Shown here: piece by piece, positions 7,405 to 41,728 of the stretch
Layout of the letters: every line of letters starts with the position of its first letter
Numbering within the stretch: the stretch's first letter is position 1
NCBI GenBank assembly: GCA_021773115.1
Contig: JAJFKS010000028.1
Location: forward strand, 186,001-250,000
DNA: 64,000 bases
Direction of reading: 5' to 3'
Source of the DNA: Woeseiaceae bacterium
Lineage (GTDB): Bacteria; Pseudomonadota; Gammaproteobacteria; Steroidobacterales; Woeseiaceae
Notes under the pieces: model-generated
Database searches by the model: none
What the model saw: only the letters and a program-made list of their open reading frames with translations
Told to the model about the DNA's origin: nothing
Made by a program: the position numbers and the translations under genes

Positions 7405-8883
7405 ATGACAAGCCCCGCCCATATACGGCTCATCGCAGCCGTTTTGTTTTTTACAGCCTCACTAGCCGTCGCAGGCCCCTACATCCCGGCCGGCGACCCG
7501 GTCCTCCGTCACGATATCCAGCGCCTGGCGGATGCGGGTGTCATCAAAGGACCCACGACAACCTGGCCGCTGGCCTGGGGACCGATCATCGCAGATCTGG
7601 GCGAGGCCGATGTCAGCGGCCTGTCGGCGTCTGTGCAGGCATCGATGCAACGAATTCAGCAACGTGCGAACTGGGAAACGCGTAGCGACGCACTCACCTT
7701 CAAAGCGAAAGTCGGCGCCGTCGACAATGTGACCCGGATTCGCGGCTTTCAGAACACGCCGCGTGGCAAAGCGGAGATCGAAGCAGGTGCAGGCTGGATC
7801 GGTGACTGGTTCGCCGCGGAAATCAACGTGCAGGGCGTCGATTCGGACCAGGACAGTGAGGAAGGCCGATTCGACAACAGTTTGCTCGGAGTCGTTTTCG
7901 GTAATTGGTCGATTGCGGCGTCGACGCAGGAGCGCTGGTGGGGACCGGGCTGGGATGGCAGCCTGATTCTGTCCAATAACGCCCGGCCGATCCCATCGCT
8001 AACAATCGACCGAATTTTCACGGATGCCTTCGAGACCCGCTGGCTGAGCTGGCTGGGACCCTGGGACTTCAGTGTCATGTTCGGCCAGCTGGAAAAAGAA
8101 CGTGCAGTGCCGAACGCTCAGTTCTTCGGTATGCGGTTCAACTTCCGGCCGATGCCGTCGCTGGAAATCGGCTTGTCACGAACCGCGCAGTGGTGTGGAG
8201 ACGGTCGACCCTGCGATGCAAGCACCTTCGTGGATCTGTTTCTCGGCAATGACAATATCGGCGATGCCGGCATTGGCGCCGACAACGAGCCTGGCAATCA
8301 GATGGCGGGCGTCGATTTCCGCTGGTCACCGTCGTTTTTCGATGTACCGCTTGCCGCCTACGGCCAATTCATTGGCGAGGACGAGGCGGGCGGATTTCCG
8401 AGCCGCTACCTGGTGCAGGTCGGTCTGGAAGGCTCGGGCCTGATGCGTGAGAGGTGGTCGTATCGCTGGTTTGCCGAGCTTGCCGGCACCAGTTGCGATT
8501 TCATCAGCGAGGACATCTTCAATTGCGGCTATCGGCAGGAAATCTACCGGTCCGGCTATACCTTTCGATCGCGGATCATCGGTCACGGCGCGGACAACGA
8601 TGCTCGCCTCGTGTCCGTGGGATGGCTGATGGTTGACGATAATGACAGCCAATGGCGTGCACTGCTGCGATTCGGGGATCTGAACCGCGGCGGGGCGCCA
8701 GACATTCAGCACAGCCTGACACCGACAGCGCAGGACATCGCCAGCCTGGACATATCCCACAGTCGCGTTTTCTCGTTTGGCGTCATCGATCTCGGCATCG
8801 GCCATGAAAACATCGACGATATCGCCAGTGGCAGCTCACTCTCCGACACAAGGTTTTATTTGCAGTGGCGAAGCTCCTACTAG
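7405..8883 (+). CDS. wzi: Capsule assembly Wzi-family outer-membrane protein (copy 1)
   Basis: A 492-residue predicted beta-barrel. An N-terminal signal peptide (hydrophobic run ending near VAGP, about residue 24) is followed by the Wzi N-terminal helix region PAGDPVLRHDIQRLADAG. Then come alternating amphipathic strands and the family motif RWWGPGWDGSLILSNNARP near residue 178, plus LSRTAQWCGDGRPC near 257. Wzi proteins are outer-membrane lectin-like barrels that help anchor or assemble surface polysaccharide. The gene overlaps the paralogous next gene by 19 bases. It heads the operon containing the SLBB export protein, the usual wzi-slbb-wzz order. Confidence 0.88.
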   Translation: MTSPAHIRLIAAVLFFTASLAVAGPYIPAGDPVLRHDIQRLADAGVIKGPTTTWPLAWGPIIADLGEADVSGLSASVQASMQRIQQRANWETRSDALTFKAKVGAVDNVTRIRGFQNTPRGKAEIEAGAGWIGDWFAAEINVQGVDSDQDSEEGRFDNSLLGVVFGNWSIAASTQERWWGPGWDGSLILSNNARPIPSLTIDRIFTDAFETRWLSWLGPWDFSVMFGQLEKERAVPNAQFFGMRFNFRPMPSLEIGLSRTAQWCGDGRPCDASTFVDLFLGNDNIGDAGIGADNEPGNQMAGVDFRWSPSFFDVPLAAYGQFIGEDEAGGFPSRYLVQVGLEGSGLMRERWSYRWFAELAGTSCDFISEDIFNCGYRQEIYRSGYTFRSRIIGHGADNDARLVSVGWLMVDDNDSQWRALLRFGDLNRGGAPDIQHSLTPTAQDIASLDISHSRVFSFGVIDLGIGHENIDDIASGSSLSDTRFYLQWRSSY

Positions 8884-10337
8884 CGCTGACAATCTTGCTG
8901 CCGGCAAGTCTGGCGGCCGCGCCGCTCGCAGCGCCCGGTGACCTGCTGCTGCGACACGATTTGCAGTTGCTGAACGACAGCGGCGCCATCGATATCCCGT
9001 TGACGGCATGGCCGATATCCAACGGCGATATTCGTGCGGCGCTGGACGACATCCGGGTCGATACCCTGTCAGCCGACGCGCTTTCGGCGTACGAGCGAAC
9101 GCACGATCGGGTCCGCTACGAGATGGATATCGACGCCGTTGCCGTTGGTTTCGGTCTGGCGGCGTCTTTGGAGCCCCGGTTTATTCGAACCTTCGAGAAC
9201 ACGCCCAGGGACGAAGGCGAAATCACTGCCCGTTTGTCATGGCTGGGCGATCGCTTTGCAGTGAACCTGTCGGCCACCGCTGCGGCAAACCCGTTCGATG
9301 GCGACGAATTCCGCCCGGACGGAACCTACATCGGCGTCGCACTGGGTAACTGGATGCTCACGGCTGGCTGGCAGGAGCGCTGGTGGGGGCCGAGCCGCGA
9401 TGGCAGTTTAATCCTGTCGACAAACGCCAGGCCTGCGCCGGGCATCACGATTCAGAGAAATGTGAGCGCGCCGTTCGAAAGCAAATGGCTGAGCTGGATC
9501 GGCCCGTGGACGCTTACCAGTTTTATGAGTGAATTGGACGACGAAAGGGTGATCAACGACGCATGGCTGTTTGGAATTCGTGGCAGCTTCAGGCCACCCA
9601 AAACCGGTCTGGAAATCGGCATTTCTCGAACTGCCCAGTGGTGCGGCGATGACCGGCCTTGCAGTTTTTCAACGTTTGGCGATTTGCTGGTCGGCAACGA
9701 CAACCGGGGTGTGAATGTTAGTCCTGAGGACGAGCCGGGGAACCAGCTTGGCGGTTTTGACATCCGGTGGACATTGCCGAGAAAGATCCCCATCGCCCTC
9801 TATATGCAGTGGATCGGCGAGGACAGCCGCGGTGGAGGCGGTGCAATAGGAGGCTGGACAAGGCAATTGGGCGCCGAACATTGGGGTATGATCGGTGCGC
9901 TCAGCCATCGTACGCACGTCGAGGTAACCGATGCGCTGGCCCGCGAAGGCGGGTTCGGATTCAGCGATACGATCCCTAATTTTTCCCATAATCATGCGAT
10001 ATATAGAACCGGCTATCGATATCAGGGACGCTCAATAGGGCACCCGGCCGACGGAGACAGCCTGTCTTACTCATTCGGGTCAACACTGGTACAATCCGCC
10101 GGTCATTCTTGGAGCATCTCGTTGCGGTACATGGAAATCAATCGAACAGGCGCGCCGGATATAAGGCACACACTCACGCCAACACCACAAGAACTGATCG
10201 ATCTGCAAATCTCGCACCAGCGCCAGACGCGATACGGGCGGGTCTTCGCGGGCCTCGGCTACAGCCAACTCGACGATCAGGTATCCGGCGTCTCGACGTC
10301 GGATGTCGCAGCCTTCGTACGATGGAGTTCGCGATGA
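8865..10337 (+). CDS. Capsule assembly Wzi-family outer-membrane protein (copy 2)
   Basis: A 490-residue paralog of the preceding gene, with the same order of motifs: signal peptide (ending near ASLAAAPLAA), GDLLLRHDLQLLNDSG, RWWGPSRDGSLILSTNARP, a WLSWIGPW strand and ISRTAQWCGDDRPC. By eye the two proteins share the barrel core but are well diverged, so the duplication is old. The start (GTG, 8865) lies inside the end of copy 1. Its stop overlaps the SLBB gene start as ATGA. It probably forms a second outer-membrane barrel for polysaccharide attachment; whether the two work together or on different glycans is unknown. Confidence 0.86.
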   Translation: MAKLLLALTILLPASLAAAPLAAPGDLLLRHDLQLLNDSGAIDIPLTAWPISNGDIRAALDDIRVDTLSADALSAYERTHDRVRYEMDIDAVAVGFGLAASLEPRFIRTFENTPRDEGEITARLSWLGDRFAVNLSATAAANPFDGDEFRPDGTYIGVALGNWMLTAGWQERWWGPSRDGSLILSTNARPAPGITIQRNVSAPFESKWLSWIGPWTLTSFMSELDDERVINDAWLFGIRGSFRPPKTGLEIGISRTAQWCGDDRPCSFSTFGDLLVGNDNRGVNVSPEDEPGNQLGGFDIRWTLPRKIPIALYMQWIGEDSRGGGGAIGGWTRQLGAEHWGMIGALSHRTHVEVTDALAREGGFGFSDTIPNFSHNHAIYRTGYRYQGRSIGHPADGDSLSYSFGSTLVQSAGHSWSISLRYMEINRTGAPDIRHTLTPTPQELIDLQISHQRQTRYGRVFAGLGYSQLDDQVSGVSTSDVAAFVRWSSR

Positions 10338-13067: not shown

Positions 13068-13701
13068 ATGCGAGCCGAAGTGCGTGATCGTGATGACCTG
13101 ATTGATCTGGGCGTAATTGCCAGCATCATATGGCAGTCGAAAATCATGATTGTCGTGATTACCGGTATTCTCGCTGTCGCTTCGGTTGTCTATGCGCTGT
13201 CACTTTCCGATCAGTACAGGGCTACAGTAACCGTCGTTCCTACGGAATCTACAGGCATATCGTCTTTGGGTCGACTGGCTGGGCAGTTTGGCGGTCTGGC
13301 TTCGTTTGCGGGCATAAATTTAGCCAGTGATTCTGGTGCTAATTAAGACTGTCATGGCGATGGAAATGGTCAAGACCTGGGATTTTTTGGATACATTTAT
13401 TAGAGAAAATAATATTGAGGTTGCTGTTTTCGCGGCAACAGGGTGGGACAGAGTTACTGATAAACCCGTCATAGACAATGATCTATACGATAGTGCTGCA
13501 AATGAGTGGGTTCGTGATTTCGATCCGAGCAAGGGCGAGTCGGCGAACCCAAGTAGCTGGGAGCTCTATGAAGTGATGCGGGACAGAGTTTCAGTCAGCC
13601 AGAACGCGAATACAGGATTAATCACACTGAGCGTCGAATTCTACTCTCCGATTATTGCCAAAGAATGGGTGGAAAAGCTTGTTGCGGCGGATCTATTGTA
13701 G
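13068..13701 (+). pseudogene. wzz: Broken chain-length determinant (wzz) copy 1: frameshift plus 3' truncation
   Basis: The first 92 codons (ATG 13068) encode a Wzz N-terminus: DLIDLGVIASIIWQSK, a membrane helix near residues 25-45, then GRLAGQFGGLASFAGINLAS. The frame then ends at TAA 13344-13346. Homology continues in another frame (KTVMAMEMVKTWDFLDTFI onward) up to EFYSPIIAKEWVEKLVAADL, where the gene stops at 13701. Removing one T near 13342 restores one continuous frame aligned to the intact wzz at 18146. The distal third, including the second membrane helix, is absent and the next gene starts at the stop codon. It therefore carries two independent disabling lesions. It follows the SLBB gene by 31 bases, the normal wza-wzz arrangement. 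Confidence 0.9.
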
Positions 13702-14639
13702 TGAAAGATGGGCGATTCGCGGAATCTTCCGGCATCGATAGATTTGCTCATTTGCGCCAAAATTATCCTGTAAAAATATTCAGCGATATTCGTTGCACTC
13801 TGGGTGAGGGGCCCGCATGGGATGAACCCTCGAAATCCCTTTTATGGGTGGATATCAAGGGCAAGAAAATATTTGCGGCGACTGCGGATGGATTAATTAC
13901 CAACACCTGGACTACATCCGCTCAACCGAGCGCAGTTATTCTGGCACATTCTGGAAACAAGCTCGTGCCGGCCGGACAGGAGGTTCTGGAGTTATGTAGT
14001 GTGTCCGGCGAAATGAAGTCGTACGTGCAATTGATCGGCGAGCCTTCTAACAATCGTTGTAACGATGCGAAGTGCGACCCCAAAGGAAATCTGTGGATTG
14101 GGACCATGGACGATGGTGAAAAGGGACGAACAGGGCGCTTATGGCGAATAGACTCAAACGGAGAAGGAAAGGTGTTTCTTGACGGTATTGGCGTGGCAAA
14201 TACATTGGCTTGGGACACGGCTCGCAGTCGGTTCTATTGTGCCGATTCAATGATTGGCGACCTATATATGTTTGATTATGATGCGGAGAATTCGTGCATA
14301 GCCAGCCGTAAGTTATTTTTGTCCAAAGACGATGCGCCGGGCGCGCCCGATGGCTCGGCGATAGATGAAGAAGGGTATTTATGGAATGCACGTTGGGATG
14401 GCGGATGTGTGATCAGGATTTCACCAGATGGTGAGTTGGATCGCATCATCGAGATGCCGGTGCGCCACCCGACGTCGTGTGCTTTTGGCGGCGAGAATAT
14501 GAAGACCTTATATGTTACGTCTGCAGCGGTGGATTCGTCTGCTGTTGCCGACAGCGCTGACTTGGGCGGAGCCGTATTTAGTATCGACGTCGACGTGGCG
14601 GGATCTCGGATACCTCCTTACAAGTGGCGAATCAGTTGA
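13701..14639 (+). CDS. SMP-30/gluconolactonase-family lactonase
   Basis: A 312-residue six-bladed propeller protein. Family motifs in order: CTLGEGPAWDE near residue 33 (metal-binding Glu), NNRCNDAKCDPKGNLWIGTM near 115 (metal Asn), ANTLAWDTARSRFYCADS, GAPDGSAIDEEGYLWNA with the catalytic Asp region, and a C-terminal PTSCAFGGENMKTLYVTSA. Relatives hydrolyse sugar lactones to aldonic acids using a divalent metal. The GTG at 13701 overlaps the broken wzz stop; a TTG at 13752 would fit the family N-terminus better, so the start is uncertain. It leads a five-gene unit (GT2, cytidylyltransferase, 2-hydroxyacid dehydrogenase, SDR), suggesting a role in making an acidic sugar. That role is inference. 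Confidence 0.85.
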   Translation: MKDGRFAESSGIDRFAHLRQNYPVKIFSDIRCTLGEGPAWDEPSKSLLWVDIKGKKIFAATADGLITNTWTTSAQPSAVILAHSGNKLVPAGQEVLELCSVSGEMKSYVQLIGEPSNNRCNDAKCDPKGNLWIGTMDDGEKGRTGRLWRIDSNGEGKVFLDGIGVANTLAWDTARSRFYCADSMIGDLYMFDYDAENSCIASRKLFLSKDDAPGAPDGSAIDEEGYLWNARWDGGCVIRISPDGELDRIIEMPVRHPTSCAFGGENMKTLYVTSAAVDSSAVADSADLGGAVFSIDVDVAGSRIPPYKWRIS

Positions 14640-14675
14640 GTTTGAAAGAGTCTGAATTAGGGGCAAGGTTCTAAA

Positions 14676-15614
14676 GTGGAAGTATCCATTGTTATTCGAA
14701 CGTATAACGAACAGCTTCACCTACCGGAATTGCTCGATGCTATTTCGCGGCAGAAGGTCGACTTCGACTTTGAAACGGTAATTGTCGACTCGGGATCAAC
14801 TGATAATACTCTGGATATTGCGAATAAATTCGGTTGCCGAATTACGCATATTCCGAAACGGGAGTTCACGTTTGGACGGTCGTTGAATATCGGTTGTGAA
14901 TTTGCGGGCGGGAAAGTGTTGGTATTTATCAGCGGGCATTGCATACCTTGTGAGGTCGACTGGTTGTCCAAGCTCACTGCTCCAGTTCGAGACGGGACCG
15001 CGAAGTACTCGTACGGTCGGCAAGTTGGCAGAGACACAACGAAATTTAGCGAGGGCGAGGTATTTTCAAAATATTACCCGGAGGGGGGCAAGGTGTTGCA
15101 AGAGGGATTCTTTTGTAATAACGCCAACGCCGCCGTGTCCTGCACGGAGTGGGCGCAGCACCGGTTCGATGAGTCTCTCACAGGTCTTGAAGATCTCAAG
15201 CTCGCGAAGACCATTGTTGAGAAAGGGAATCCAATCGCCTATGTGGCTGAAGCGCCAGTCTTTCATATACACGACGAGTCCTGGCATCAGGTTCGAGTGC
15301 GTTATGAGCGAGAGGCGCTTGCATTGCGTAAAATCATGCCCGAAGTTCACGTCGGGTTTGCAGATTTCTTGCGTTATTTTTTCAGCGGCGTTTTTCATGA
15401 TTTTGGCATTGCGCTTGAGCAAAGAATGCTCTTCAAGCGCGCAGGTGAGATAATCGCGTTTCGCTGGATGCAATTTTGGGGCACGTATCGCGGAAATCTT
15501 GAGCATCGGCAGGTCTCTGCAAAGCAGCGTGAAGAGTATTTCTACCCAAAACCAAAGGGGAGACAAAATAATGAGCAAACGGATCGTCGCTCTTCTACCT
15601 ATGAAAGCTCATAG
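14676..15614 (+). CDS. GT2-family glycosyltransferase
   Basis: A 312-residue GT-A fold enzyme. It begins VSIVIRTYNEQLHLPELL and has VDSGSTDNTLD near residue 38, which binds the nucleotide. At the usual DxD position it has FISGHCIPCEVDWL, a Ser/His variant also seen in some GT2 subfamilies. Later ESLTGLEDLKLAKTIVEKG supplies the catalytic acid region, and HIHDESWHQVRVRYEREA follows. The start is GTG with a GGGGCAAGG-type site upstream. The gene overlaps the next one by 44 bases. Because it sits in the cytidylyltransferase unit it may add that unit's sugar, but GT2 enzymes normally use UDP/GDP/dTDP donors, so the donor is open. Confidence 0.85.
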   Translation: MEVSIVIRTYNEQLHLPELLDAISRQKVDFDFETVIVDSGSTDNTLDIANKFGCRITHIPKREFTFGRSLNIGCEFAGGKVLVFISGHCIPCEVDWLSKLTAPVRDGTAKYSYGRQVGRDTTKFSEGEVFSKYYPEGGKVLQEGFFCNNANAAVSCTEWAQHRFDESLTGLEDLKLAKTIVEKGNPIAYVAEAPVFHIHDESWHQVRVRYEREALALRKIMPEVHVGFADFLRYFFSGVFHDFGIALEQRMLFKRAGEIIAFRWMQFWGTYRGNLEHRQVSAKQREEYFYPKPKGRQNNEQTDRRSSTYESS

Positions 15615-16257
15615 TGAGCGCGTGCCGGGCAAGAACTTCCGTCCAATGGCGGGGAAGCCGTTAGTTAGATGGATATTGGATGCTCTACTCGACGTTGACG
15701 TTATTACGAAGGTCGTGATTAATACCGATGCTCGCGAGCTTCTTGAGGAAATCGGAGTGGTGGATTCTGATCGTGTGTCTATTCGGGATCGGAAACCGGA
15801 ACTTTGTGGCGACATGGTGAGCATGAATCTCATTCTGGAGGATGATATTACGGCGACGGATGCAGACTTGTACTTGATGACACATACAACTAACCCGCTG
15901 ATTTCTGCTGCGACAATAAGGACCGCGATCGATTGTATTGACGTCAATGAAGGGGCGGATTCGCTATTCTCTGTGAATAGGATCCAGACCCGCTTTTATC
16001 GGGAAGATGGCGAAGCCGTTAATCACGACCCCGACAATCTGATACGCACTCAAGACCTGGAACTCTGGTTTGAGGAGAATTCCTGTCTATATTTATTCAC
16101 TAAAGAGAGTTTCGCGGAAACCGGAGCACGAATTGGCAGGGACCCGATGATGTATGAAACTCCGCCCTTGGAGTCTCTCGATATCGACGAACCACATGAT
16201 TGGTTTGTCGGCGAAGCGGTTCTTGAGAAACGGGAGCGTGAAGCGATGCAATCATGA
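15571..16257 (+). CDS. Acylneuraminate cytidylyltransferase-family enzyme (CMP-sugar synthetase)
   Basis: A 228-residue nucleotidyltransferase with the CTP-binding loop LLPMKAHSERVPGKNFRPMAGKPL at its N-terminus, NTDARELL near residue 49 and LYLMTHTTNPLISAATI near residue 95. Later it has the metal-binding SLDIDEPHDWFVGEAVL. This is the NeuA/KdsB-like family that activates keto-sugar acids as CMP derivatives. The start at 15571 has AGGGGAGA eight bases upstream; an earlier in-frame start would lie deep in the GT2 gene. No NeuB, NeuC, PseB-I or KDO-8-P synthase gene is present, so the substrate is probably not a standard sialic acid made here. Its stop overlaps the next gene as ATGA. Confidence 0.87.
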   Translation: MSKRIVALLPMKAHSERVPGKNFRPMAGKPLVRWILDALLDVDVITKVVINTDARELLEEIGVVDSDRVSIRDRKPELCGDMVSMNLILEDDITATDADLYLMTHTTNPLISAATIRTAIDCIDVNEGADSLFSVNRIQTRFYREDGEAVNHDPDNLIRTQDLELWFEENSCLYLFTKESFAETGARIGRDPMMYETPPLESLDIDEPHDWFVGEAVLEKREREAMQS

Positions 16258-17186
16258 AGATTCTTATTACATGCCCGCCGATGATTCGAATGATCGGCGA
16301 CTTGAATTACCTGTTCGACGGATCGGATGTCGACGTCCATTGTCCGGATGTTGTTCAGACACTGTCTGAGGATGAGCTGATTCAGCTGGTTCCAAAGTTC
16401 GATGGCTGGATTATTGGTGATGATCCGGCAACTGCGGCAGTGTTCGAAGCAGGTAAAGCGGGAACCCTGAAGGCGGCGGTGAAGTGGGGTATTGGCGTCG
16501 ATAATATTGACCTGAAAGCGGCGAAAAGTCTGGGGATTCCAATTAGCAATACGCCGATGATGTTCGGAGGTGAGGTTGCCGATATTGCGATGTCATACGT
16601 CATCGCGCTTGCGCGTGAGACTTTCGCTATTCACGCTGGTGTGACCGTCGGAGAATGGCCGAAACCACGGGGTATATCACTGGCCGGTCGAACAATGGGT
16701 TTGGTTGGATTTGGCGACATCGGTCGAAATGTGGCACGCCGAGCACAAGCTGCGGACATGCGAGTCATAGCTTACGACCCACACTATGAACCAGTCGACG
16801 GTCTGGGCCGTGTTGAATCCTGCGTCTGGCCAGAACGACTGGGCGAGTGCGATTTCCTGGTGTTTACCTGCGCCTTGAATTCTGGAAATTTTCATATGTT
16901 GAACAATGACGTGCTTGAACAGGCGAAGCCGAATATCCGAATAGTTAATGTGGCGCGCGGTGGGCTCATAGACGAAGGCGCATTGATCGGTGGTTTGGAG
17001 TCCGGCAAGATTCATTCCGTCGCTTTGGATGTTTTCGAAGTCGAGCCATTGGCCGAGGACTCGCCTCTGAGGGCGTATCCAAGGAATGTCTTTGGCTCAC
17101 ACAACGGTTCAAACACCTCCGATGCTGTCACAAGAGCTAGCGAGCGTGCCGTTTCGATCTTGCTGAAGGCTCTGGGACGAGCATGA
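16254..17186 (+). CDS. D-isomer-specific 2-hydroxyacid dehydrogenase
   Basis: A 310-residue NAD-dependent dehydrogenase of the phosphoglycerate-dehydrogenase family. It shows KWGIGVDNIDLKAAKSLGI near residue 80, GGEVADIAMSYVIALAR near 103, the NAD motif GLVGFGDIGRNVARRA near 145, the catalytic Arg in NVARGGLIDEGAL near 230, the Glu in DVFEVEPL near 258 and the His in GSHNGSNTSD near 280. Such enzymes interconvert 2-keto and D-2-hydroxy acids. Overlaps of 4 bases on both sides couple it to the cytidylyltransferase and the SDR. It probably acts on the sugar acid of this unit; it is too short for a SerA with regulatory domain. Confidence 0.88.
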   Translation: MKILITCPPMIRMIGDLNYLFDGSDVDVHCPDVVQTLSEDELIQLVPKFDGWIIGDDPATAAVFEAGKAGTLKAAVKWGIGVDNIDLKAAKSLGIPISNTPMMFGGEVADIAMSYVIALARETFAIHAGVTVGEWPKPRGISLAGRTMGLVGFGDIGRNVARRAQAADMRVIAYDPHYEPVDGLGRVESCVWPERLGECDFLVFTCALNSGNFHMLNNDVLEQAKPNIRIVNVARGGLIDEGALIGGLESGKIHSVALDVFEVEPLAEDSPLRAYPRNVFGSHNGSNTSDAVTRASERAVSILLKALGRA

Positions 17187-17929
17187 ATAATCGGGCAGCA
17201 GTCATTACAGGAAGCGCCGGTTCGATCGGCCGTGCATTATGCAAAGTATTTAAAGCTGCTGGATACAAGGTCATCGGGGTAGATATCAAAGATCAAGATG
17301 GCGTCGAGGCCGACGAGTGGTTGCATGGAGATCTAATGCGATTTGTTGCGGATGACGAGTATCGCGACCGGATGCTCGGGGCGATCAAGGCGGCCTCTGG
17401 CGACGCTAAAATCGGTGTTCTTTGTAATAATGCAGCCGAGCAACGACTTGCCAGAACTGAAGATGTTTCGATCAATGACTGGCAGGTTTCGCTGGACGTA
17501 AACCTGACCGCCCCGTTTCTTCTGGCACAGGGTCTTTTGAAGGATTTGGAAAATGCTGGTGGATCCGTTGTTAATATTGCGAGTATTCACGCTCGCCTGA
17601 CAAAACCCGAATTTGTTGCCTACGCGACTTCTAAAAGTGGACTAGTCGGCTTGACAAAAGCGTTGGCCGTCGATCTTGGTGGTCGCGTTCGGGTCAATGC
17701 GATATGTCCCGCCGCCATTGATACGCCGATGCTTCGAGAGGGATTCGAAGGAAGAAGTTTGAGCGACCTGGATTCATTGCGGCTCTGCCACCCAGCAGGC
17801 CGAATCGGGCAGCCGGAAGAGGTAGCCGAACTCGCTCTTTGGCTCGCGAGCCCGCGGGCGTCGTTCGTATCAGGCGCGTGCTACGAAATTGATGGAGCCA
17901 TTAGCTCGAGACTGCACGATCCGGCCTAG
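17183..17929 (+). CDS. Short-chain dehydrogenase/reductase of the CMP-sugar unit
   Basis: A 248-residue classical SDR. It has the cofactor motif TGSAGSIGRALC at residues 8-19, acidic VDIKDQDG after the second strand (suggesting NAD preference), LCNNAAEQ near 78, catalytic Ser in NIASIHA near 132 and YATSKSGLVGLTKAL near 147. The C-terminus has RIGQPEEVAELALWLASPRA and ends EIDGAISSRLHDPA. It is the last gene of the five-gene unit and overlaps the 2-hydroxyacid dehydrogenase by 4 bases. A degenerate copy of its last ~38 codons lies at 19102-19245 behind the second wzz, showing that a homologous operon once stood there. Confidence 0.9.
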   Translation: MNNRAAVITGSAGSIGRALCKVFKAAGYKVIGVDIKDQDGVEADEWLHGDLMRFVADDEYRDRMLGAIKAASGDAKIGVLCNNAAEQRLARTEDVSINDWQVSLDVNLTAPFLLAQGLLKDLENAGGSVVNIASIHARLTKPEFVAYATSKSGLVGLTKALAVDLGGRVRVNAICPAAIDTPMLREGFEGRSLSDLDSLRLCHPAGRIGQPEEVAELALWLASPRASFVSGACYEIDGAISSRLHDPA

Positions 17930-18145: not shown

Positions 18146-19102
18146 ATGACCGAACAACAACAAGAGCGGCTAGCGGCTCCATACGACGATGAGATCGATC
18201 TCCGTGAACTGTTTCGCATCCTCTGGGCAGGGAAGTGGTTGATCAGTGGATTAACCTTCGTTGCTGCAGTTATAGCTGTCATCGTTGCGCTGATGATGCC
18301 CGATATTTACAGGGCAGAGGCTTTATTGGCGCCGAATGATCAGGAGGGCAGCGGCGGTTTGTCAGTTTTGGCTGCTAAGTACGGCGGTTTGGCCAGTCTT
18401 GCCGGGGTAAATCTGGACGGTGGTTCAGCGGACAAAGTCGCGTTGGGGCTTGAGATTCTGAAATCTAGAAAATTCATCTCTGAATTTATTGAACGGCATG
18501 ACATCTTGGTTCCGTTGATGGCCGCCGATGGTTGGGATGAAGAAACTGGTGATCTCAAGATTGACGCCGATGACTATGATGTCACAGCTAAGAGATGGGT
18601 AAGAGATGTAAGCCCGCCGAAAAAGCCAATTCCTTCGACGCAGGAAGCGTACAGAGTATTCATCAATATCTTTTCCGTCGGTCAGGATATAAAATCAGGA
18701 TTTGTGAACGTTGAGGTTGAGCACTATTCGCCAACTGTTGCTAAGCAGTGGGTCGATTGGCTAGTTGATGATCTTAACGCATTCATAATGCAGCAGGATG
18801 TGGCCGAAGCTGAGCAAGCAATCGAGTATCTTAATAAGCAAATCGCAAATACTTCCCTCGCTGAATTGCAAAACGTATTTTTTCGATTGATTGAAGAACA
18901 AACAAAAACGGTGATGTTGGCGAAAGTCTCAAACGAATATTTATTAAAGACACTGGACCCAGCAGTTGCTCCTGAACTAAAAGCTAAGCCAATGCGGACA
19001 CTAATAGTCATATTGGCGACAATGTTGGGCGGATTTTTGGGAGTAGTCGTTCAACTTATTCGGCCAAACAGTGCCACTTTAAGAGAAAGAAGCGCAAGAT
19101 AA
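18146..19102 (+). CDS. wzz: Chain-length determinant protein Wzz (intact copy)
   Basis: A 318-residue polysaccharide co-polymerase of the inner membrane. It has IDLRELFRILWAGKWLISG near residue 13, a first membrane helix at about 30-52, a long periplasmic domain with SVLAAKYGGLASLAGVNLDGG near 72 and EVEHYSPTVAKQWVDWLVDDL near 190, and helical AEQAIEYLNKQIAN. The second membrane helix at about 288-310 (TLIVILATMLGGFLGVVVQ) is preceded by a Pro-containing linker. It lacks a kinase domain, so it is a Wzz rather than a Wzc. It is the functional counterpart of the broken wzz at 13068 and is flanked by two gene stubs (SLBB and SDR). Confidence 0.92.
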   Translation: MTEQQQERLAAPYDDEIDLRELFRILWAGKWLISGLTFVAAVIAVIVALMMPDIYRAEALLAPNDQEGSGGLSVLAAKYGGLASLAGVNLDGGSADKVALGLEILKSRKFISEFIERHDILVPLMAADGWDEETGDLKIDADDYDVTAKRWVRDVSPPKKPIPSTQEAYRVFINIFSVGQDIKSGFVNVEVEHYSPTVAKQWVDWLVDDLNAFIMQQDVAEAEQAIEYLNKQIANTSLAELQNVFFRLIEEQTKTVMLAKVSNEYLLKTLDPAVAPELKAKPMRTLIVILATMLGGFLGVVVQLIRPNSATLRERSAR

Positions 19103-19351: not shown

Positions 19352-20290
19352 GTGAATCTAACCTATAAATTCCTCGATCCCGCGGCAATCATCGATACTG
19401 AGGACTTTAAAGTCGTACAAGCCTTTGTGCACGACACAGGGCGTCGTAATATCGGGTGGCACTACATCATAGATCTGACCTGGATATACTCTCGTGCTCG
19501 TCTTTGGCCAGCTGGGATACGTGTGCTGGATGCTGGTGGCGGCAGAGGGCCGGCGCAGTTTTTACTCGCTGAAATGGGCTTCGACATTGTCAACATCGAC
19601 TTGATGCACACGCAACCAGACTATTCATACACCAGCCGCTATGGCACGAAAAGAGAAGGGCTTGAAAGCAACGTTGAGACTCGTTATCTCAAGCATATCT
19701 TGAATTTCGGCCGTTATCTAAAGCTTCTCAAACAAGCGCGGAAGGCCATGATGGAATCGTCCCTGATGAGAGCGACCACGACGAAAGCCTATGCAACGCG
19801 GCACGAGTGTTGGCGCAAGGCGAACGGATATGCTGCACGGCCAGTTGGACGAATCCAGTGGCTTGCTGGCAACCTGTGTCAAGTACCCGAAATGAAAACC
19901 GCGTCGTTCGATGCCGTAGTATCATTATCGTCATTGGAACATATCCCTATCGAGCGTCTGCCAGAGGCCCTAGAAGAGATGCAGCGCTTGGTTAGGCCCG
20001 AAGGCTGTTGGGCGGTTACGACATCGGGCACCGAGCGAGCGGAGACTTGGTATCACGATTCGTCGCTTGGTTACTGCTTTAGCGAAGGGGATCTCGTTAA
20101 GTTATTCCACGCACACCCTGATGACAAAGCTAGTGCTGCGGATATTTTGAGCAAGTATCGCACTTCTCGTTACCTCAAAGACAATCTGGCATTTAATTAC
20201 CGGCTATCTGGACAGAATGGAATGCCGTGGGCTAAATGGAATCCCGTTTATATCCCTGTTGGTATCACCGAGTCACCCTTATGCGGATGA
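19352..20290 (+). CDS. Class I SAM-dependent methyltransferase
   Basis: A 312-residue protein with the SAM-binding motif VLDAGGGRGPAQFLLAEMG near residue 64, IVNIDLMH near 87 and a second motif FDAVVSLSSLEHIPIERLP near 187, followed by EEMQRLVRPEGCWAVTTS. An insert of roughly 70 basic residues (about 100-170) separates the first two motifs. It likely methylates a sugar or a sugar acid of the surface glycan, or caps a chain. The start is GTG 19352. It is the last gene with host-like composition before the AT-rich block. Confidence 0.8.
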   Translation: MNLTYKFLDPAAIIDTEDFKVVQAFVHDTGRRNIGWHYIIDLTWIYSRARLWPAGIRVLDAGGGRGPAQFLLAEMGFDIVNIDLMHTQPDYSYTSRYGTKREGLESNVETRYLKHILNFGRYLKLLKQARKAMMESSLMRATTTKAYATRHECWRKANGYAARPVGRIQWLAGNLCQVPEMKTASFDAVVSLSSLEHIPIERLPEALEEMQRLVRPEGCWAVTTSGTERAETWYHDSSLGYCFSEGDLVKLFHAHPDDKASAADILSKYRTSRYLKDNLAFNYRLSGQNGMPWAKWNPVYIPVGITESPLCG

Positions 20291-24346: not shown

Positions 24347-25156
24347 ATGACGGATTTCGGCAATAGACATAGAATATTTACCCGGTTAGCGAAGCTATCG
24401 GATTCTTGGTACGGTTTAGCTGCATCAGGATTGATCTTGCGAAGAAACGAACGGCTTTTAGAAGCGTTCGGAAATAAACACGCGGGGGAAAGGTGTTTCA
24501 TTATTGGAAATGGGCCTAGCCTTAACAAATTAGATCTAACGAAATTGACACAAGAGTTTACATTTGGTGTCAATGCCATTTATACCAATTATGAACGGAT
24601 GCAATTTTACCCTACCTATTATGTGGTGGAAGATACATTTGTAGCCGAGGATAGATCCGAGGAAATTAATAACTACAAAGAAAGTATCAAGTTCTTCGGC
24701 AATTACCTGAAGTATTGCTTGAAACAAGACGACCATTCTCTATTACTGAACGTGATCTTCAATTACAGTGAATACGAAGATTTTCCGCATTTTAGTGAAA
24801 ATGCGTTAAGAAGAGTCTGGGTTGGTGGATCAGTTACTTACATTTGTTTACAGCTTGCGTACTTTATGGGCTTTAAGGAGGTTTACATGATCGGCTTCGA
24901 TCATTCGTATGAGATCCCCGAAGAAGCCATCGTTGAAGGCAACGATATCACTTCAGTGCATGATGATCCCAACCATTTTGCACCTGAATATTTTGGAAAA
25001 GGAAAACGTTGGCACTTGCCACGGGTTGAAAGGATGGAACAAGGATTTGCAAAAGCCAGGAAGCACTTTGAAAGGAATAAAAGAAGTGTATTCAATGCCA
25101 CTGCGGGTGGCCATTTGGAAGTGTTTGAACGCCGACAATTTGAAAAATTATTTTAA
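24347..25156 (+). CDS. DUF115/Maf-like protein (copy 1), candidate sialyltransferase-like glycosyltransferase
   Basis: A 269-residue soluble protein with CFIIGNGPSLNKLDLTKL near residue 49, GVNAIYTNYERMQFYPTYYV near 74, WVGGSVTYICLQLAYFMGF near 165 and a conserved VYMIGFDHSY strand near 180. The GNGPSL motif and overall plan match DUF115, the domain of Maf proteins that transfer nonulosonic acids to flagellin, related in fold to GT42 sialyltransferases. Some annotations call such proteins MptE-like. It lies between wzx and wzy, and a paralog is at 29229. A glycosyltransferase role, perhaps using the CMP-sugar made by the 15571 gene product, is inference. Confidence 0.72.
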   Translation: MTDFGNRHRIFTRLAKLSDSWYGLAASGLILRRNERLLEAFGNKHAGERCFIIGNGPSLNKLDLTKLTQEFTFGVNAIYTNYERMQFYPTYYVVEDTFVAEDRSEEINNYKESIKFFGNYLKYCLKQDDHSLLLNVIFNYSEYEDFPHFSENALRRVWVGGSVTYICLQLAYFMGFKEVYMIGFDHSYEIPEEAIVEGNDITSVHDDPNHFAPEYFGKGKRWHLPRVERMEQGFAKARKHFERNKRSVFNATAGGHLEVFERRQFEKLF

Positions 25157-28287: not shown

Positions 28288-29229
28288 ATGAAAACTGATG
28301 TTAAATATTCGATTGGTGAGCGAATTGAACAGACAATCCGCAAGTCGGTCGTCGGGCGCAATTTGTCACGTATGCGGAAAAGCTCCCCCTTCTTATACGC
28401 GTCGTTGCGAAATGTTTACTCAAAGCTGTTTCGCATTCGGTCGCAGCACGGGTTGGCGCGTTATCAAGTCCGCTCGATGAATCGATTCTTAAATTGGGTG
28501 CCCGCAGATATTTTGCAACAAAGTGTTTTGGAGATCGGTTCTGATTTGGATGCCAAAGTAATAAGGGAGCTGCGTGCGAAGGGTTGTAGCAATTTGGTTG
28601 GCGTTAATCCCGCGTTTACAGATGAGGAGTTGATACAAATAACTCCTAGCCTCCCAGAAGGGTGTGCGCTTGCGCGGTCTGATATGCGATCGACTGGCTT
28701 GGCTGATGCGAGTTTTGGGGCGATCTTCAGTGTGTCGGTATTTGAACACTTGCTAGACTTTGACCGATGTCTCATGGAAATGCATCGCATTTTGGTTCCG
28801 GGTGGTATCGTTTATGCCGATTTCGGCCCCATATGGTCATCCAGCATTGGGCATCATGTATTTGCAAATGTCGATGGTGTGCAGGCCCGACACTGGGATC
28901 CAAAACTCAATCCGCTGGAAAATTTCTCGCACTTGCTCGGTTCGCCCGATGAGATGCGTGCTTCTCTGACTGGGCGAGTTTCAGATTCCATGTGTGAGGC
29001 TATCGCGGAGTGGGTATATACCGGCGATGATATTAATCGCCTGTTTTTTGAGGACTATGTTCGATTGATCGAGGCATCTCCATTTGAACTGGTGCACATG
29101 GATGTGGATCGTGAGCATGTGCCCGAGCGGGTGCTTTCGGATTTGCGGGCTCGTTGCCCAGGGTACGATCAGTTCGACGTGCGAAATGTCGAGCTGGTGT
29201 TGAAGAAGTGTGAAACCAATAGAGTTTAG
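28288..29229 (+). CDS. SAM-dependent methyltransferase
   Basis: A 313-residue protein. SVLEIGSDLDAKVIRELRAKG near residue 79 is the SAM-binding strand-loop and LVGVNPAFTDEEL follows. Methyltransferase motifs FGAIFSVSVFEHLLDFDRC near 151 and EMHRILVPGGIVYADFGPIW complete the Methyltransf_11-type domain. A roughly 65-residue N-terminal extension rich in Arg/Lys may bind membrane or partner proteins. It could methylate a sugar of the glycan. Its stop overlaps the next start, so it is coupled to the second DUF115 gene. Confidence 0.8.
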   Translation: MKTDVKYSIGERIEQTIRKSVVGRNLSRMRKSSPFLYASLRNVYSKLFRIRSQHGLARYQVRSMNRFLNWVPADILQQSVLEIGSDLDAKVIRELRAKGCSNLVGVNPAFTDEELIQITPSLPEGCALARSDMRSTGLADASFGAIFSVSVFEHLLDFDRCLMEMHRILVPGGIVYADFGPIWSSSIGHHVFANVDGVQARHWDPKLNPLENFSHLLGSPDEMRASLTGRVSDSMCEAIAEWVYTGDDINRLFFEDYVRLIEASPFELVHMDVDREHVPERVLSDLRARCPGYDQFDVRNVELVLKKCETNRV

Positions 29230-30041
29230 TGATGCGAATAAGAATGGGAGAGATCACGCCAACTCGTTTATACGAAGCTGTAGCGCGACGTGTCGGGGAC
29301 ATCCCGGATGCGCTAGCCTGGAGGCGATCTGCACTTGCGAGTCGCAATCGCGAGCTTTTGGAGCATTATCGGAATATTCATCGGGAGAAGCGATGCGTCA
29401 TTATGGCGAATGGCCCCAGCCTTGCAGGCATGGACTTGTCCTGCCTGCAAAATGTTCATACTTTCAGTATGAACAGAGCCTATCTGCTTTATGAACAGTG
29501 GGGTTTCACGCCGAGTTATTTCGTTTGCATCAATGAACTGGTGATAGACCAATTCGCTGAGGACATCGCGAAATTGTCGCTGCCAAAGTTTTTGAACTAC
29601 AACAGACGTCAGCTTTTCGTTGGTACAGGGAACGATGACTCGCAAATGTTTTTGCGTCTTGGGTTAAATCTCAATGACCGGTTTAGTGGCGAAGTGACAA
29701 GGGCCATTTCAAGTGGTGGAACGGTAACTTTCGCTTGTCTGCAACTCGCATATTTCATGGGGTTTGACGAGGTGGTGCTTATTGGACTTGATCATAATTT
29801 TGTTGAGAAAGGCGTGCCAAATACCACTGAGGTTCGTTCATCCGAGAAGGATGAAAGCCATTGCCATCCAGAGTATTTCCCAAAGGGTATCAAATGGCAG
29901 CTTCCTGATTTGTATCGGTCTGAGTTAGCTTATGCTTTGGCGCGACAGGCTTTCGAGGCGGATGGTCGTAAGGTTCTCGATGCTACTGTAGGTGGTAAGT
30001 GCGATGTATTTCCAAAGGTTAATTTCCGCGACCAGTTTTAA
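29229..30041 (+). CDS. DUF115/Maf-like protein (copy 2), candidate sialyltransferase-like glycosyltransferase
   Basis: A 270-residue homolog of the 24347 product, with the same motif order: CVIMANGPSLAGMDLSCL near residue 56, FSMNRAYLLYEQWGFTPSYF near 80, ISSGGTVTFACLQLAYFMGF near 158 and VVLIGLDHNFVE near 180, ending with DVFPKVNFRDQF. Its composition is host-like rather than AT-rich, so the two copies came by different routes and are not a recent duplication. A GTG (29229) and ATG codons at 29232 and 29244 are possible starts. As with copy 1, a CMP-sugar transferase role is inferred from DUF115 kinship to Maf and GT42 enzymes. Confidence 0.72.
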   Translation: MMRIRMGEITPTRLYEAVARRVGDIPDALAWRRSALASRNRELLEHYRNIHREKRCVIMANGPSLAGMDLSCLQNVHTFSMNRAYLLYEQWGFTPSYFVCINELVIDQFAEDIAKLSLPKFLNYNRRQLFVGTGNDDSQMFLRLGLNLNDRFSGEVTRAISSGGTVTFACLQLAYFMGFDEVVLIGLDHNFVEKGVPNTTEVRSSEKDESHCHPEYFPKGIKWQLPDLYRSELAYALARQAFEADGRKVLDATVGGKCDVFPKVNFRDQF

Positions 30042-35164: not shown

Positions 35165-35872
35165 ATGTCGTTCGGCGTTTGAGCGCCTTCTGGGAGATGG
35201 CAGCCAACGGGGAGTATCCATAGGTTATGCCGTGCAACCCGATCCCGGTGGACTGGCTCAAGCGTTGCTTATTGGCGAGGAATTCGTTGCGGGTGACCCG
35301 GTGGCGCTGGTTCTAGCGATAACATTTTCGACGGTCACGGACTGCCCGAGCAGTTGGGTTCAGCATCTCAGCAGGAATCTGGGGCGACGGTTTTTGCTTA
35401 TTATGTTGATGATCCGGAGCGATACGGTGTTGTGCACTTCGACGCAGATAAAAAAGCTATCGGTATCGAAGAAAAACCCTGCCAGCTGAAATCGATCTAT
35501 GCGGTCACCGGGTTGTACTTTTACAATAGTCAGGTTACCGAGATTGCGAAAGCCCTCAAGCCGTCGTTGAGGGGACAACTTGAGATCACCGATCTGAACA
35601 GGGTCTACCTTGAGCAGGGCTTGCCGCCCGTCGAGTTAATGGGGCGCGGTGTCGCTTGGCTGGACACCGGCACGCATGAATCCCTTATGGAAGCCGCAAA
35701 TTTCATTGAGATCATTCAACGCAGGCAAGGGCTGAAAATGTCGTGTCAGGAAGTGATCGCATACAAACTCGGATACATCAATGTGGCGCAAGTTGAGTTC
35801 TTAGCTTCCGGGTTGAAGCAAAACGAATACGGCAAGTACCTGCTAAAAATGCTGAACGACGAGATTTGCTAG
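35165..35872 (+). pseudogene. rmlA: rmlA copy 1: 5'-truncated and frameshifted
   Basis: The sequence encodes a glucose-1-phosphate thymidylyltransferase lacking roughly the first 64 residues. It starts at [20 protein letters not shown] just behind the sugar transferase stop, so the nucleotide-binding [11 protein letters not shown] loop is gone. Near 35319-35321 a G is missing (CTAGCGAT for CTAGGCGAT), shifting the frame after DPVALVL. Downstream the other frame continues to the normal end ([14 protein letters not shown]). The intact homolog is at 41729. Function is lost on both counts. Confidence 0.93.
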
Positions 35873-36247
35873 TGAAGTTTGTCGAGACGCGCCTGCCGGG
35901 CGTCATTCGGATCGAGCCGGCGGTTCACGATGATGATCGCAGCTTCTTCATGGAAACTTGGCAATCTCGACGCTTCACCGAGAACGGAATCGATGCTGAC
36001 CTCGTTCAGGATAATTTCAGCCATTCCTCAAAAGACACCTTGCGTGGCATTCATTACCAAGTTGAACAATCGCAGGGTAAAATTGTGCGAGTCGTTAGAG
36101 GAGAAGTCTTCGACGTGGCCGTTGATTTGAGGAAATCATCCCCGCAGTACGGGCAGTGGGTCGGTGAACTGCTTTCGGCCGAAAACAAGCATCAGTTATG
36201 GGTGCCGCCCGGTTTCGGGCATGGGTTCCCCGTACTGAGTGAAACGG

Positions 36248-36274
36248 TGTCACCGGCAGTGTAAAACTGACCCC
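36248..36274 (+). repeat. Left terminal inverted repeat of the IS21-family element
   Basis: Matches the complement of 38181-38207 at 23 of 27 positions, including TGTCA at the tip and TAAAACTGACCCC. It begins immediately after the ACGG target duplication. Confidence 0.92.
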
Positions 36275-36337
36275 CTAACGGCAAGATAAAATTGCCCCCC
36301 CTGTAAAGTACGCGCATCGGCAAGAACGGGGCGCGAG

Positions 36338-38178
<1,841 letters not shown>

Positions 38179-38180
38179 AA

Positions 38181-38207
38181 GGGGTCAGTTTTATGTTGCC
38201 GTTGACA
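38181..38207 (-). repeat. Right terminal inverted repeat of the IS21-family element
   Basis: Complement begins TGTCAACGGCAACATAAAAC and pairs with 36248-36274. It is followed directly by the second ACGG copy and by rmlC codons (GCA GAG TTC). Confidence 0.92.
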
Positions 38208-38380
38208 ACGGCAGAGTTCGAATATAAGTGCACCGACTACGATGCACCTGTGTTCGAGCGCTCGATACGCTGGGACGATCCGGAAATAAATATTAAATGG
38301 CCATTGGCCGATGGTGAGTCGCCGACGCTGTCTTCGAAAGATGCTGCTGCGCCGTTCTTCAAGGACGCTGAAACCTACGC

Positions 38381-39247
38381 ATGAAAACGCTGGTAATCGG
38401 TTGTAATGGTCAACTGGGTCATTCACTCGTGGATACAGTACCGGAAGGTACGGACATTATCGGTCTCGACCTGCCCGAGCTGGACATTACAGATGCTGCC
38501 GGTGTTCTTGAGACTTGCCGGGAGATACGCCCCGATCTGATCGTCAATGCGGCCGCTTACACGGCGGTGGACAAGGCCGAATCCGACGCAGCACTGGCGG
38601 CCGTTGTAAATGCCGAGGGGCCGAGGAATATAGCGTTGGCTGCGGCCGATCTGGGCGCCAGGATCATTCATATTTCGACAGACTTTGTATTTGATGGCAC
38701 GGCGTCGAATCCCTACAAACCTGATGCTCCGACCAATCCGCTGAGTGTTTATGGGCAGACGAAGCGTGACGGTGAACTGGCCGTACTGGAAGAAGCGCCG
38801 GACGTTGCAATAGTGATACGAACCTCCTGGCTGTACAGCAAGACCGGCAGTAACTTCGTCAAGACCATGTTGCGCCTGATGAGCGAGCGGGACGAGCTTG
38901 GCGTGGTGGCGGACCAGATTGGTACTCCAACTTGGGCGAACTCACTGGCAGATGCGGTCTGGGCGTTTGCTGGTGCGTCGGGGTGCAGCGGCATATACCA
39001 TTGGGCCGATAGGGGTGAAACAAGCTGGCAGGAATTCGCGATTGCAATTCAGGACGAGGCGATCTCGCTGGCCCTGTTGGAGAATGCAATTCCAATACGT
39101 CCGATAAAGACCGAGGACTACCCGACGGCCGCCAAGCGACCTGCGTACAGCGTGTTGGACTGTTCATCTGCGCAAGAGGCGATTAAGATGCAGCCCGCAG
39201 AATGGCGGACCAATCTCCGCCAGATGCTCAAAGGAATGGCTGAATAA
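38381..39247 (+). CDS. rmlD: dTDP-4-dehydrorhamnose reductase (copy 1, intact)
   Basis: A 288-residue NADPH-dependent reductase for the last step of dTDP-L-rhamnose synthesis. It has GCNGQLGHSLVDTVP at residues 7-21, GLDLPELDITD near 28, NAAAYTAVDKAESD near 54, ISTDFVFDG near 94 and catalytic YGQTKRDGELAVLE near 123. Later IRTSWLYSKTGSNFVKTML. It overlaps the rmlC 3' end as ATGA. It is the only gene of the first rml operon without a visible lesion and matches the length of the 43164 copy. Since upstream rmlA and rmlC are broken, expression is uncertain. Confidence 0.95.
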   Translation: MKTLVIGCNGQLGHSLVDTVPEGTDIIGLDLPELDITDAAGVLETCREIRPDLIVNAAAYTAVDKAESDAALAAVVNAEGPRNIALAAADLGARIIHISTDFVFDGTASNPYKPDAPTNPLSVYGQTKRDGELAVLEEAPDVAIVIRTSWLYSKTGSNFVKTMLRLMSERDELGVVADQIGTPTWANSLADAVWAFAGASGCSGIYHWADRGETSWQEFAIAIQDEAISLALLENAIPIRPIKTEDYPTAAKRPAYSVLDCSSAQEAIKMQPAEWRTNLRQMLKGMAE

Positions 39248-40361: not shown

Positions 40362-40413
40362 GGATCGTTCGAATTTCGCAAGAGTGTCGAATAGCTTTAC
40401 AAGTGGGTACGGA

Positions 40414-40443
40414 TTACCAAATTTGATAAATATGGTCTATTAT
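40414..40443 (+). promoter_or_regulatory. Candidate sigma-70 promoter upstream of the wecA-like gene
   Basis: TTACCA (40414-40419) and TATTAT (40438-40443) are separated by 18 bases, about 80 bases before ATG 40524. The surrounding 160-bp spacer is AT-rich compared with the genes and separates the decayed rml operon from the next unit. Confidence 0.35.
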
Positions 40444-40523
40444 TCACAGAAGTTAACGTCAACCCATTCTTCACAGAGACGTTCCTGATAATCTCAGTCC
40501 GCAAATAAGCCCAATAAAGAGCG

Positions 40524-41630: not shown

Positions 41631-41689
41631 CCGAATAAAGGCCGCCCGGTTGGCGTACTTGTTACCGGCGCAATCCCGCCGAACATCTG

Positions 41690-41695
41690 TATAAT
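41690..41695 (+). promoter_or_regulatory. -10 element (TATAAT) upstream of the intact rml operon
   Basis: TATAAT in the context ATCTGTATAATCTCGCG, 33 bases before the rmlA GTG. No convincing -35 is seen at 16-18 bases. Nearly the same context (TTCTGTATAATCCCGG) occurs upstream of ugd at 45158, suggesting a shared promoter style. Confidence 0.5.
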
Positions 41696-41728
41696 CTCGC
41701 GATCGCAAGCTTACGTCTGGAATACTAC

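Follow-up and report, generated by a model that had tools for sequence, protein, structure and literature searches.

A conserved lactonase, dehydrogenase and cytidylyltransferase cassette predicted to supply a CMP-activated acidic sugar outside the nonulosonic acid and Kdo pathways

How might a bacterium prepare an acidic sugar for activation with cytidine monophosphate (CMP) by a route other than the familiar ones? The question is raised by five adjacent genes of a Woeseiaceae bacterium (assembly GCA_021773115.1), in which a NeuA-like cytidylyltransferase lies among a lactonase, a glycosyltransferase and two dehydrogenases. The genes were studied in a window of 64,000 nucleotides (contig JAJFKS010000028.1, positions 186,001 to 250,000), which is the whole stretch of DNA analysed and belongs to contig 21 of a 4.41 Mb assembly with a genome completeness of 99.56%. 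To our knowledge, the known CMP-ulosonic acids, namely 3-deoxy-D-manno-octulosonic acid (Kdo) and the sialic, legionaminic and pseudaminic acids, are built by condensation with phosphoenolpyruvate (PEP). We consider it probable, at roughly 85%, that the five genes form a module making a CMP-activated acidic sugar outside the Kdo and nonulosonic acid (NulO) pathways.

All five open reading frames (ORFs) lie on the plus strand, and the overlapping unit outlined in the preliminary description was recovered at the same position. It begins with a lactonase of the SMP-30/gluconolactonase type (13701..14639, GTG start; PF08450, 248.9 bits), which would open an aldonolactone to an aldonate, and continues with a family 2 glycosyltransferase (GT2; 14676..15614; PF00535) that carries SGHC instead of DXD and is the proposed CMP-sugar transferase. 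The NeuA-like cytidylyltransferase (15571..16257; PF02348, 70.8 bits against a gathering score of 22.6) would form a CMP-ulosonate from CTP and an ulosonic acid. It is followed by a NAD-type D-2-hydroxyacid dehydrogenase (HADH; 16254..17186; PF02826/PF00389), predicted to convert an aldonate to a 2-ketoaldonate, and by a classical short-chain dehydrogenase/reductase (SDR; 17183..17929; PF13561/PF00106), a putative aldose 1-dehydrogenase. A gap of 36 bases separates the lactonase from the GT2, and the following genes overlap by 44 bases (GT2 and cytidylyltransferase), 4 bases (cytidylyltransferase and HADH) and 4 bases (HADH and SDR). The Pfam assignments of all five proteins exceed the curated cut-offs, and no NCBIfam model among the matches listed, which for the SDR are the best 25 of 212, reaches its cut-off.

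The predicted catalytic residues of the cassette enzymes are intact; their catalytic and binding roles are those that we take from family knowledge. In the lactonase, E23, R106, N108, N154 and D204 (numbered from 13740) are conserved in an alignment of 14 rows, and the PF08450 match together with the metal ligands E, N and D places the protein in the SMP-30 family, with 7plb and regucalcin as the best solved relatives. The HADH conserves GxGxxG, the Arg-Glu-His catalytic set (R235, E264, H283) and D175, which fits NAD, and its closest matches are phosphoglycerate dehydrogenase and glyoxylate reductase. The SDR has TGxxxGxG and conserves N107, S134, Y147 and K151, and glucose 1-dehydrogenases are among its best solved relatives. 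In the cytidylyltransferase, R17, K21 and N22 of the nucleotide-binding N terminus and D204 and D206 of the C-terminal DxD are invariant in 31 rows. The structure models of the cassette proteins gave folds rather than substrates.

The cytidylyltransferase (CYTIDYLYLTRANSFERASE) groups with CMP-Kdn, CMP-Neu5Ac and CMP-Pse synthetases by sequence and by fold; its model has a pLDDT of 86, with low values around residues 141-170, and matches the fold of 9t4z. With each of the four models listed for it the protein scores far under the cut-off, the best being PseF (66.7 against 205.7), the best KdsB model reaches 34.3 bits against a cut-off of 255, and TIGR00466 (kdsB) is absent from the matches listed. 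The lack of NeuB in the window, remarked on earlier, holds genome-wide: the NeuB family (PF03102) had 0 matches in the whole host genome, with the control positive in 9 of 14 genomes, and a complete NulO pathway elsewhere, which would have spoken against the earlier proposal, was looked for in this way and not found. KdsA, which was to be checked at the same time, is present on another contig, as expected for Kdo. It is the only DAHP_synth_1 protein of the genome (404 against a cut-off of 314), and the other of the two CTP_transf_3 proteins (the C18 protein) is KdsB (252.5 against 155.2); both are encoded on contigs other than that of the window. Since the genome holds this separate true KdsB and KdsA, ordinary Kdo is served by its own enzymes. 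Near the relatives described below, a NeuB-like sequence was found in 1 of 85 loci (L114, at the locus edge) and KdsA in 1 of 85. A NulO or Kdo product was dropped as the leading reading on these grounds.

Conservation was examined in 85 loci chosen by the cytidylyltransferase alone, 80 of which are labelled. They comprise the best 80 of 582 relatives (L054-L133) from a scan of species genomes, in which at least 582 relatives were confirmed, together with L042-L044, L050 and L051. With thresholds that we set ourselves (GT2 at 38% identity within 1.5 kb, HADH at 45% within 2 kb and SDR at 40% within 4.5 kb of the cytidylyltransferase), the GT2 was found in 77/85 loci, the HADH in 77/85 and the SDR in 47/85. 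The GT2, cytidylyltransferase and HADH genes are co-directional in all 75 loci in which both partners were matched. Among the 66 loci with fuller flanks (at least 2.2 kb upstream and 3 kb downstream; 19 loci with short flanks were left out), GT2 and HADH occur in 60, referred to as core loci, and the SDR occurs in 39. The neighbourhood survey bears out the gene set proposed earlier, with SMP-30 in only 20/85 loci, and it is well supported that the five genes represent one conserved module. Other families recur as well, such as a gmd-like family in 23/85 loci and a GDP-fucose-synthase-like family in 18/85 (names read from the sequence). Because gmd is common anyway, being present in 88 of 185 genomes of the window's class, fucose is not proposed as the substrate and was set aside.

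The lactonase position is occupied by either of two families with unrelated folds. A UlaG-like family of the metallo-β-lactamase (MBL) fold, about 258 residues long, is encoded directly in front of the GT2 or forms an N-terminal fusion with it in 30/85 loci; the fusions number 8 (L070, L075, L085, L104, L106, L115, L119 and L132) and have 551-595 residues. The two members searched in Pfam belong to Lactamase_B_2, all four members searched in NCBIfam match the L-ascorbate 6-phosphate lactonase UlaG, at 55-67 bits against a cut-off of 306, and HxHxDH is kept in 29 of the 30 proteins. SMP-30 genes lie within 10 kb of the cytidylyltransferase gene in 20/85 loci, 13 of them within 3.5 kb, and the two families occur together in 0/85. 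In the 60 core loci, SMP-30 was found in 17, MBL in 22 and both in none (Fisher p 7e-5); with the limit at 3.5 kb the counts are 11, 22 and 0 (p 0.0035). Neither family is present in 20 control loci centred on gmd from the window's class, taken as Gammaproteobacteria, five of which are short stretches. On the cytidylyltransferase tree, in which good support is limited to 34 of 91 inner branches, the bootstrap is unsettled and the row of L073 is badly trimmed (branch length 10), the SMP-30 labels are interleaved with 19 changes, at least 10 of them forced by well-supported branches, and the MBL labels with 15 changes, at least 11 of them forced. This suggests repeated swaps of the lactonase, although short-flank loci cause part of the pattern. 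In addition, the SMP-30 gene abuts or overlaps an SDR gene of the same strand in 8/20 loci, with some overlaps due to over-long ORF calls, and this adjacency fits consecutive oxidation and lactone opening.

A further variant concerns the supply of the 2-keto acid. In 6/85 loci (L097, L113, L116, L117, L125 and L131) an HpcH/HpaI aldolase gene lies within 0.8 kb of the cytidylyltransferase gene, and no GT2, HADH, SDR or lactonase was matched there. Four of these loci are among the 66 with fuller flanks, and none of the four has an HADH (p 7e-6). Their cytidylyltransferases are 61-65% identical to that of the window and branch at more than one point within the family tree; a more distant relative in Acuticoccus (44%) shows the order HpcH-CMP enzyme-HADH. 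In our reading, the aldolase would make in one step the ulosonic acid for which the cassette would need three. The aldolase occurs in place of the lactonase, HADH and SDR, and this is the strongest hint that a 2-keto sugar acid is what those three jointly provide; the donor of the aldolase would decide between a 3-deoxy and a non-deoxy product.

As for the transfer, the GT2 (TRANSFERASES) is modelled with a pLDDT of 88.5 and a GT-A fold, and Foldseek matches it to TarS, RmlT and TarP. GT2 families of this type carry DXD at the motif position, and this motif holds a metal gripping a diphosphate. The Glycos_transf_2 domain and the GT-A fold are present in the cassette protein, and the metal-binding DXD is missing. 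SGHC occupies the motif in 74 of the 77 cassette-type GT2s with letters there, and its His occurs in 77/77; no His was found at motif positions 2-4 in the 22 proteins with letters there among 47 other GT2-like proteins of the same and control loci. Since the cassette GT2s themselves served to build the profile for the cassette type, the division by score at 200 bits is biased in their favour. Because the metal of DXD grips a diphosphate, its loss is compatible with a CMP donor, and it is no proof of one.

A second candidate for the transfer lies downstream, where an MptE-like/DUF115 (Maf-type) protein (24347..25156, plus strand; PF01973, 56.2 bits) may be an ulosonate transferase; a paralogue 39% identical to it follows (29229..30041, plus strand; PF01973, 48.3 bits). 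With a search profile made from these two window proteins only, DUF115 was detected in 37 of the 49 loci whose flanks reach 9 kb in either direction and in 0/20 of the gmd-centred controls (p 2e-9), near 8 of 11 loci labelled gammaproteobacterial by title, and close by in 5/6 aldolase loci. Maf proteins of the MptE-like/DUF115 superfamily have been reported to use CMP-activated Neu5Ac and Kdo (PMC11339370).

From these data a sequence of reactions can be proposed, running from aldose through aldonolactone, aldonate, 2-ketoaldonate and CMP-ulosonate to glycan, and we lean slightly towards this exact chemistry. The SDR would oxidise C1 of an aldose to an aldonolactone with NAD, and the SMP-30 or MBL lactonase would open it to the aldonate. 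The HADH would then oxidise the C2 hydroxyl with NAD to give a 2-ketoaldonate; starting from a hexose, this would be a hex-2-ulosonic acid. After closure to the hemiketal, the NeuA-like enzyme would join the anomeric hydroxyl to CMP, and the GT2 with SGHC, the nearby Maf-type DUF115 protein, or both would transfer the residue into an O-antigen or capsule. We infer from the genes what each enzyme does, which way the two dehydrogenases run and which sugar is involved. The preliminary description had proposed that a sugar acid is built oxidatively and activated with CMP in a pathway not yet assigned; two lactonase folds, SDR-lactonase neighbours and the aldolase variant support that route, which keeps the status of a proposal. 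A wider claim is more tentative, and we hold it at somewhat less than even odds: CMP-hex-2-ulosonates may be a class of nucleotide sugars, so far unrecognised, in representatives of at least 11 phyla, reached by stepwise NAD-dependent oxidation of a free aldose or, in some Verrucomicrobiota, by a single step with an HpaI-type aldolase, and used by the GT2 clade with SGHC and by short Maf-type DUF115 proteins.

Several observations weigh against the oxidative scheme. Members of the HADH family usually act as reductases on keto acids, and the sequence of an enzyme does not reveal its substrate. Lactonase and SDR accompany the cytidylyltransferase less regularly than GT2 and HADH do: within 10 kb, neither a recognised lactonase nor an aldolase is present in 22 of the 66 fuller-flank loci, and 27 of the 66 have no close SDR. 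In the Rhodobacterales loci the SDR shares only about 30% identity with that of the window. Two of the four MBL proteins searched score higher with a generic "metal-dependent hydrolase" model than with UlaG, and for 7 of the 20 SMP-30 genes the distance to the cytidylyltransferase gene is 4.8-9.6 kb, so that they may be unrelated to it. On a Thalassovita plasmid (L042:4900-9136), a block of kpsF-kdsB-kdsA-SDR-SMP30 lies upstream of the GT2-cytidylyltransferase-HADH trio, and its SDR and SMP-30 could act on Kdo there. All six aldolase loci are from Verrucomicrobiota, and in two of them (L097 and L116, with 2.1 and 0.3 kb downstream) the absence of partners is weak evidence on account of the short flanks. 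In the congener locus L054, the HADH frame (L054:2985-3929) has one internal stop; either decay or an error in the assembly may be the cause. The loci are also kin, so all p-values given here overstate their independence.

Other explanations share part of this evidence. The module may be of the same kind and yield a 3-deoxy (2-keto-3-deoxygluconate-like) or otherwise modified hexulosonic or hexulosaric acid with the help of a dehydratase encoded elsewhere; the substrate of the cytidylyltransferase would then be a 2-keto-3-deoxy acid, with a precursor prepared or oxidised by the dehydrogenases and lactonase. The variant loci encode an aldolase of the HpaI/GarL/RhmA type, which would give 2-keto-3-deoxy acids with pyruvate, but HpaI-type aldolases can also use hydroxypyruvate, yielding non-deoxy products. 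Deoxy-hexulosonic acids do occur in capsules, as in the Escherichia coli K3 antigen, for which 4-deoxy-2-hexulosonic acid is reported in a title (Dengler 1988, cited in PMC10433991). On the other side, no sugar-acid dehydratase was seen among the neighbour families that occur in at least 4 loci, for which 10 representatives were searched in Pfam, most others were judged by eye and one had no Pfam match; the genome was not searched for one. We regard this variant as unlikely. It is less probable still that the cytidylyltransferase activates a Kdo or NulO made elsewhere and that the dehydrogenases and lactonase perform side modifications. The closest solved relatives (CMP-Kdn, CMP-Neu5Ac and CMP-Pse synthetases), the Thalassovita block and the KdsA of the host are in its favour, but it has to contend with a nearly complete genome that holds a KdsB of its own and no NeuB, with the rarity of KdsA and NeuB-like sequences at the loci, with the aldolase partner, and with scores far under the PseF and KdsB cut-offs.

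Cytidylylation of something other than a sugar, such as a phosphonate or a small hydroxy acid, with the HADH giving a D-glycerate- or lactate-like unit, appears very improbable. Some NeuA-like enzymes do cytidylylate phosphonates, and the nearest relatives of the HADH are phosphoglycerate dehydrogenase and glyoxylate reductase; but no phosphonate family was among the matches listed in the family searches, none of which was aimed at PEP mutase, and the lactonase position and the aldolase suit sugar acids better. That unrelated polysaccharide genes became neighbours by chance can hardly be credited. Variation of the lactonase and SDR between loci speaks for it, but the co-directional set of GT2, cytidylyltransferase and HADH in 75/75 cases across phyla and the lack of both lactonase families in the control loci already contradict it.

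The cassette shares some features with several known systems and differs from them in others. The CMP-nonulosonic pathways (NeuB-NeuA, LegI-LegF and PseI-PseF) likewise have the NeuA-like fold and motifs, with Maf/DUF115-type proteins nearby, but the host lacks the PEP-condensing NeuB, and the cassette uses a lactonase with two NAD-type dehydrogenases, or an HpcH aldolase. The CMP-Kdo pathway (KpsF/KdsD-KdsA-KdsC-KdsB) also activates a 2-keto sugar acid with CMP; here the host has KdsA and KdsB elsewhere, and the cassette enzyme is far under the KdsB cut-off. Non-phosphorylative sugar oxidation combines an SDR aldose dehydrogenase with an SMP-30 lactonase, as in xylonate and fuconate catabolism, and the same pair in the cassette would turn an aldose into an aldonate; in contrast, no aldonate dehydratase was seen among the recurrent neighbours of the cassette. 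The cassette is probably biosynthetic, because the HADH and CTP activation follow inside a glycan locus. The E. coli K3 capsule provides a precedent for a C6 ulosonic acid as a capsule component; in PMC10433991 the information is called insufficient to assign a gene cluster to K3, and no link between K3 and the cassette was found in the consulted parts of PMC10433991 and PMC13171606.

The cytidylyltransferase has a patchy distribution. Counting the host, it occurs in 2 of 73 genomes of the genus, in 3 of 369 genomes of the class sample at 63% identity or more (G000, G115 and G232), and in 3 of 398 genomes of the phylum sample at E<=1e-50, one of them at 43% (G668). The best 80 of the 582 relatives are 60-72% identical to the window protein and span 11 phyla, with 50 in Pseudomonadota, 9 in Verrucomicrobiota, 6 in Cyanobacteriota, 4 each in Nitrospirota and Planctomycetota, 2 in Thermodesulfobacteriota, and one each in Acidobacteriota, Chloroflexota, Myxococcota, Bacteroidota and Chlorobiota. 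Plasmids gave 65 records with a match, including three from Rhodobacterales at 63-66%; a search with the GT2 gave 31 records, and among the 15 listed, those at 49% or more are the same three and one from Pararhizobium. The cassette has apparently moved between lineages. A phage or viral origin was rejected, as viral contigs yielded 98 pattern matches, none of them a relative, and phage records gave no match. In Pararhizobium (L046:12001-17209), the cassette-type GT2 is followed by only a fragment of a close cytidylyltransferase, and a complete, more distant cytidylyltransferase-HADH pair lies a few kb upstream. Capsule plasmids of Enterobacter and E. coli (L047 and L048) carry a distant relative of the cytidylyltransferase, at about 30%, accompanied by inositol-monophosphatase-like and NeuB-like proteins.

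The surroundings of the cassette in the window suggest part of its history. Directly before the lactonase lies a damaged wzz gene for a chain-length regulator (13068..13701, plus strand), with PF02706 on its first part and a frame break near 13340; as far as the start of the lactonase, its 3' part is lost. Behind the SDR comes a second, intact wzz (18146..19102, plus strand; PF02706, PF13807). In the congener (L054, the reverse complement of the G813 contig), the 3' end of an intact wzz leads directly into the lactonase, followed by the GT2, the cytidylyltransferase, the HADH and the start of the SDR. This intact junction indicates that wzz-lactonase-GT2-cytidylyltransferase-HADH-SDR is the genus arrangement and that the first wzz of the window has decayed. 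Further on, a SAM methyltransferase (19352..20290, plus strand; PF08241) is 48% identical to the member at L050, and its family (f17) is found near the cytidylyltransferase in 5/85 loci (L050, L058, L083, L084 and L088).

Elsewhere in the window, with names read from the sequence, two similar tandem outer-membrane proteins of the capsule-assembly, Wzi-like type (7405-10337) overlap by 19 bases. The region 35354-45137 holds two dTDP-rhamnose-type gene sets, rfbA/rfbD/rfbB-like; two genes of the first set (35354-35872, 38381-39247 and 39594-40361) look truncated, and an IS21-like istA/istB pair (36338-38178) interrupts it. A second polysaccharide locus (51308-63245) reads as a PEP-CTERM/XrtA-type exopolysaccharide system, with a sugar transferase, a PrsK-like kinase, a TPR protein, a deacetylase, a tyrosine kinase, and export and chain-length proteins.

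One of the loci bears on a capsule. Legionella longbeachae NCTC11477 (L057) carries the GT2-cytidylyltransferase-HADH-SDR cassette with a DUF115 gene before it; an SMP-30 gene is found on the opposite strand at a distance of 8.7 kb. The same contig holds, about 13 kb from the cassette, a run of ORFs taken as capsule export genes and reading as CtrB/KpsE-, ABC permease-, ABC ATPase- and BexD-like, of which only BexD was family-tested (PF02563) and the others were named from their sequence. The gene llo3163 probably corresponds to the HADH of this cassette. In PMC11419355 the capsule of L. longbeachae is described as highly anionic, with a chemistry that is still unresolved, and the authors raise the question of where the charge comes from; they also mention peaks in high-performance liquid chromatography that could represent phosphosugars, and these would provide charge as well.

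Among the matches listed in a search of open-licence PMC papers, no description of the gene set as a pathway was found, and the cassette is apparently a shared bacterial assembly line that has not yet been described. If the oxidative route is correct, oxidation would be a second solution, besides PEP condensation, for obtaining a CMP-activated acidic sugar, and an acidic residue would be predicted in many surface glycans. The finding also points to several uncharacterised clades of enzymes and to GT2 proteins forming a clade whose motif is unusual, and the presence of the cassette in the L. longbeachae locus makes the question of its capsule charge testable.

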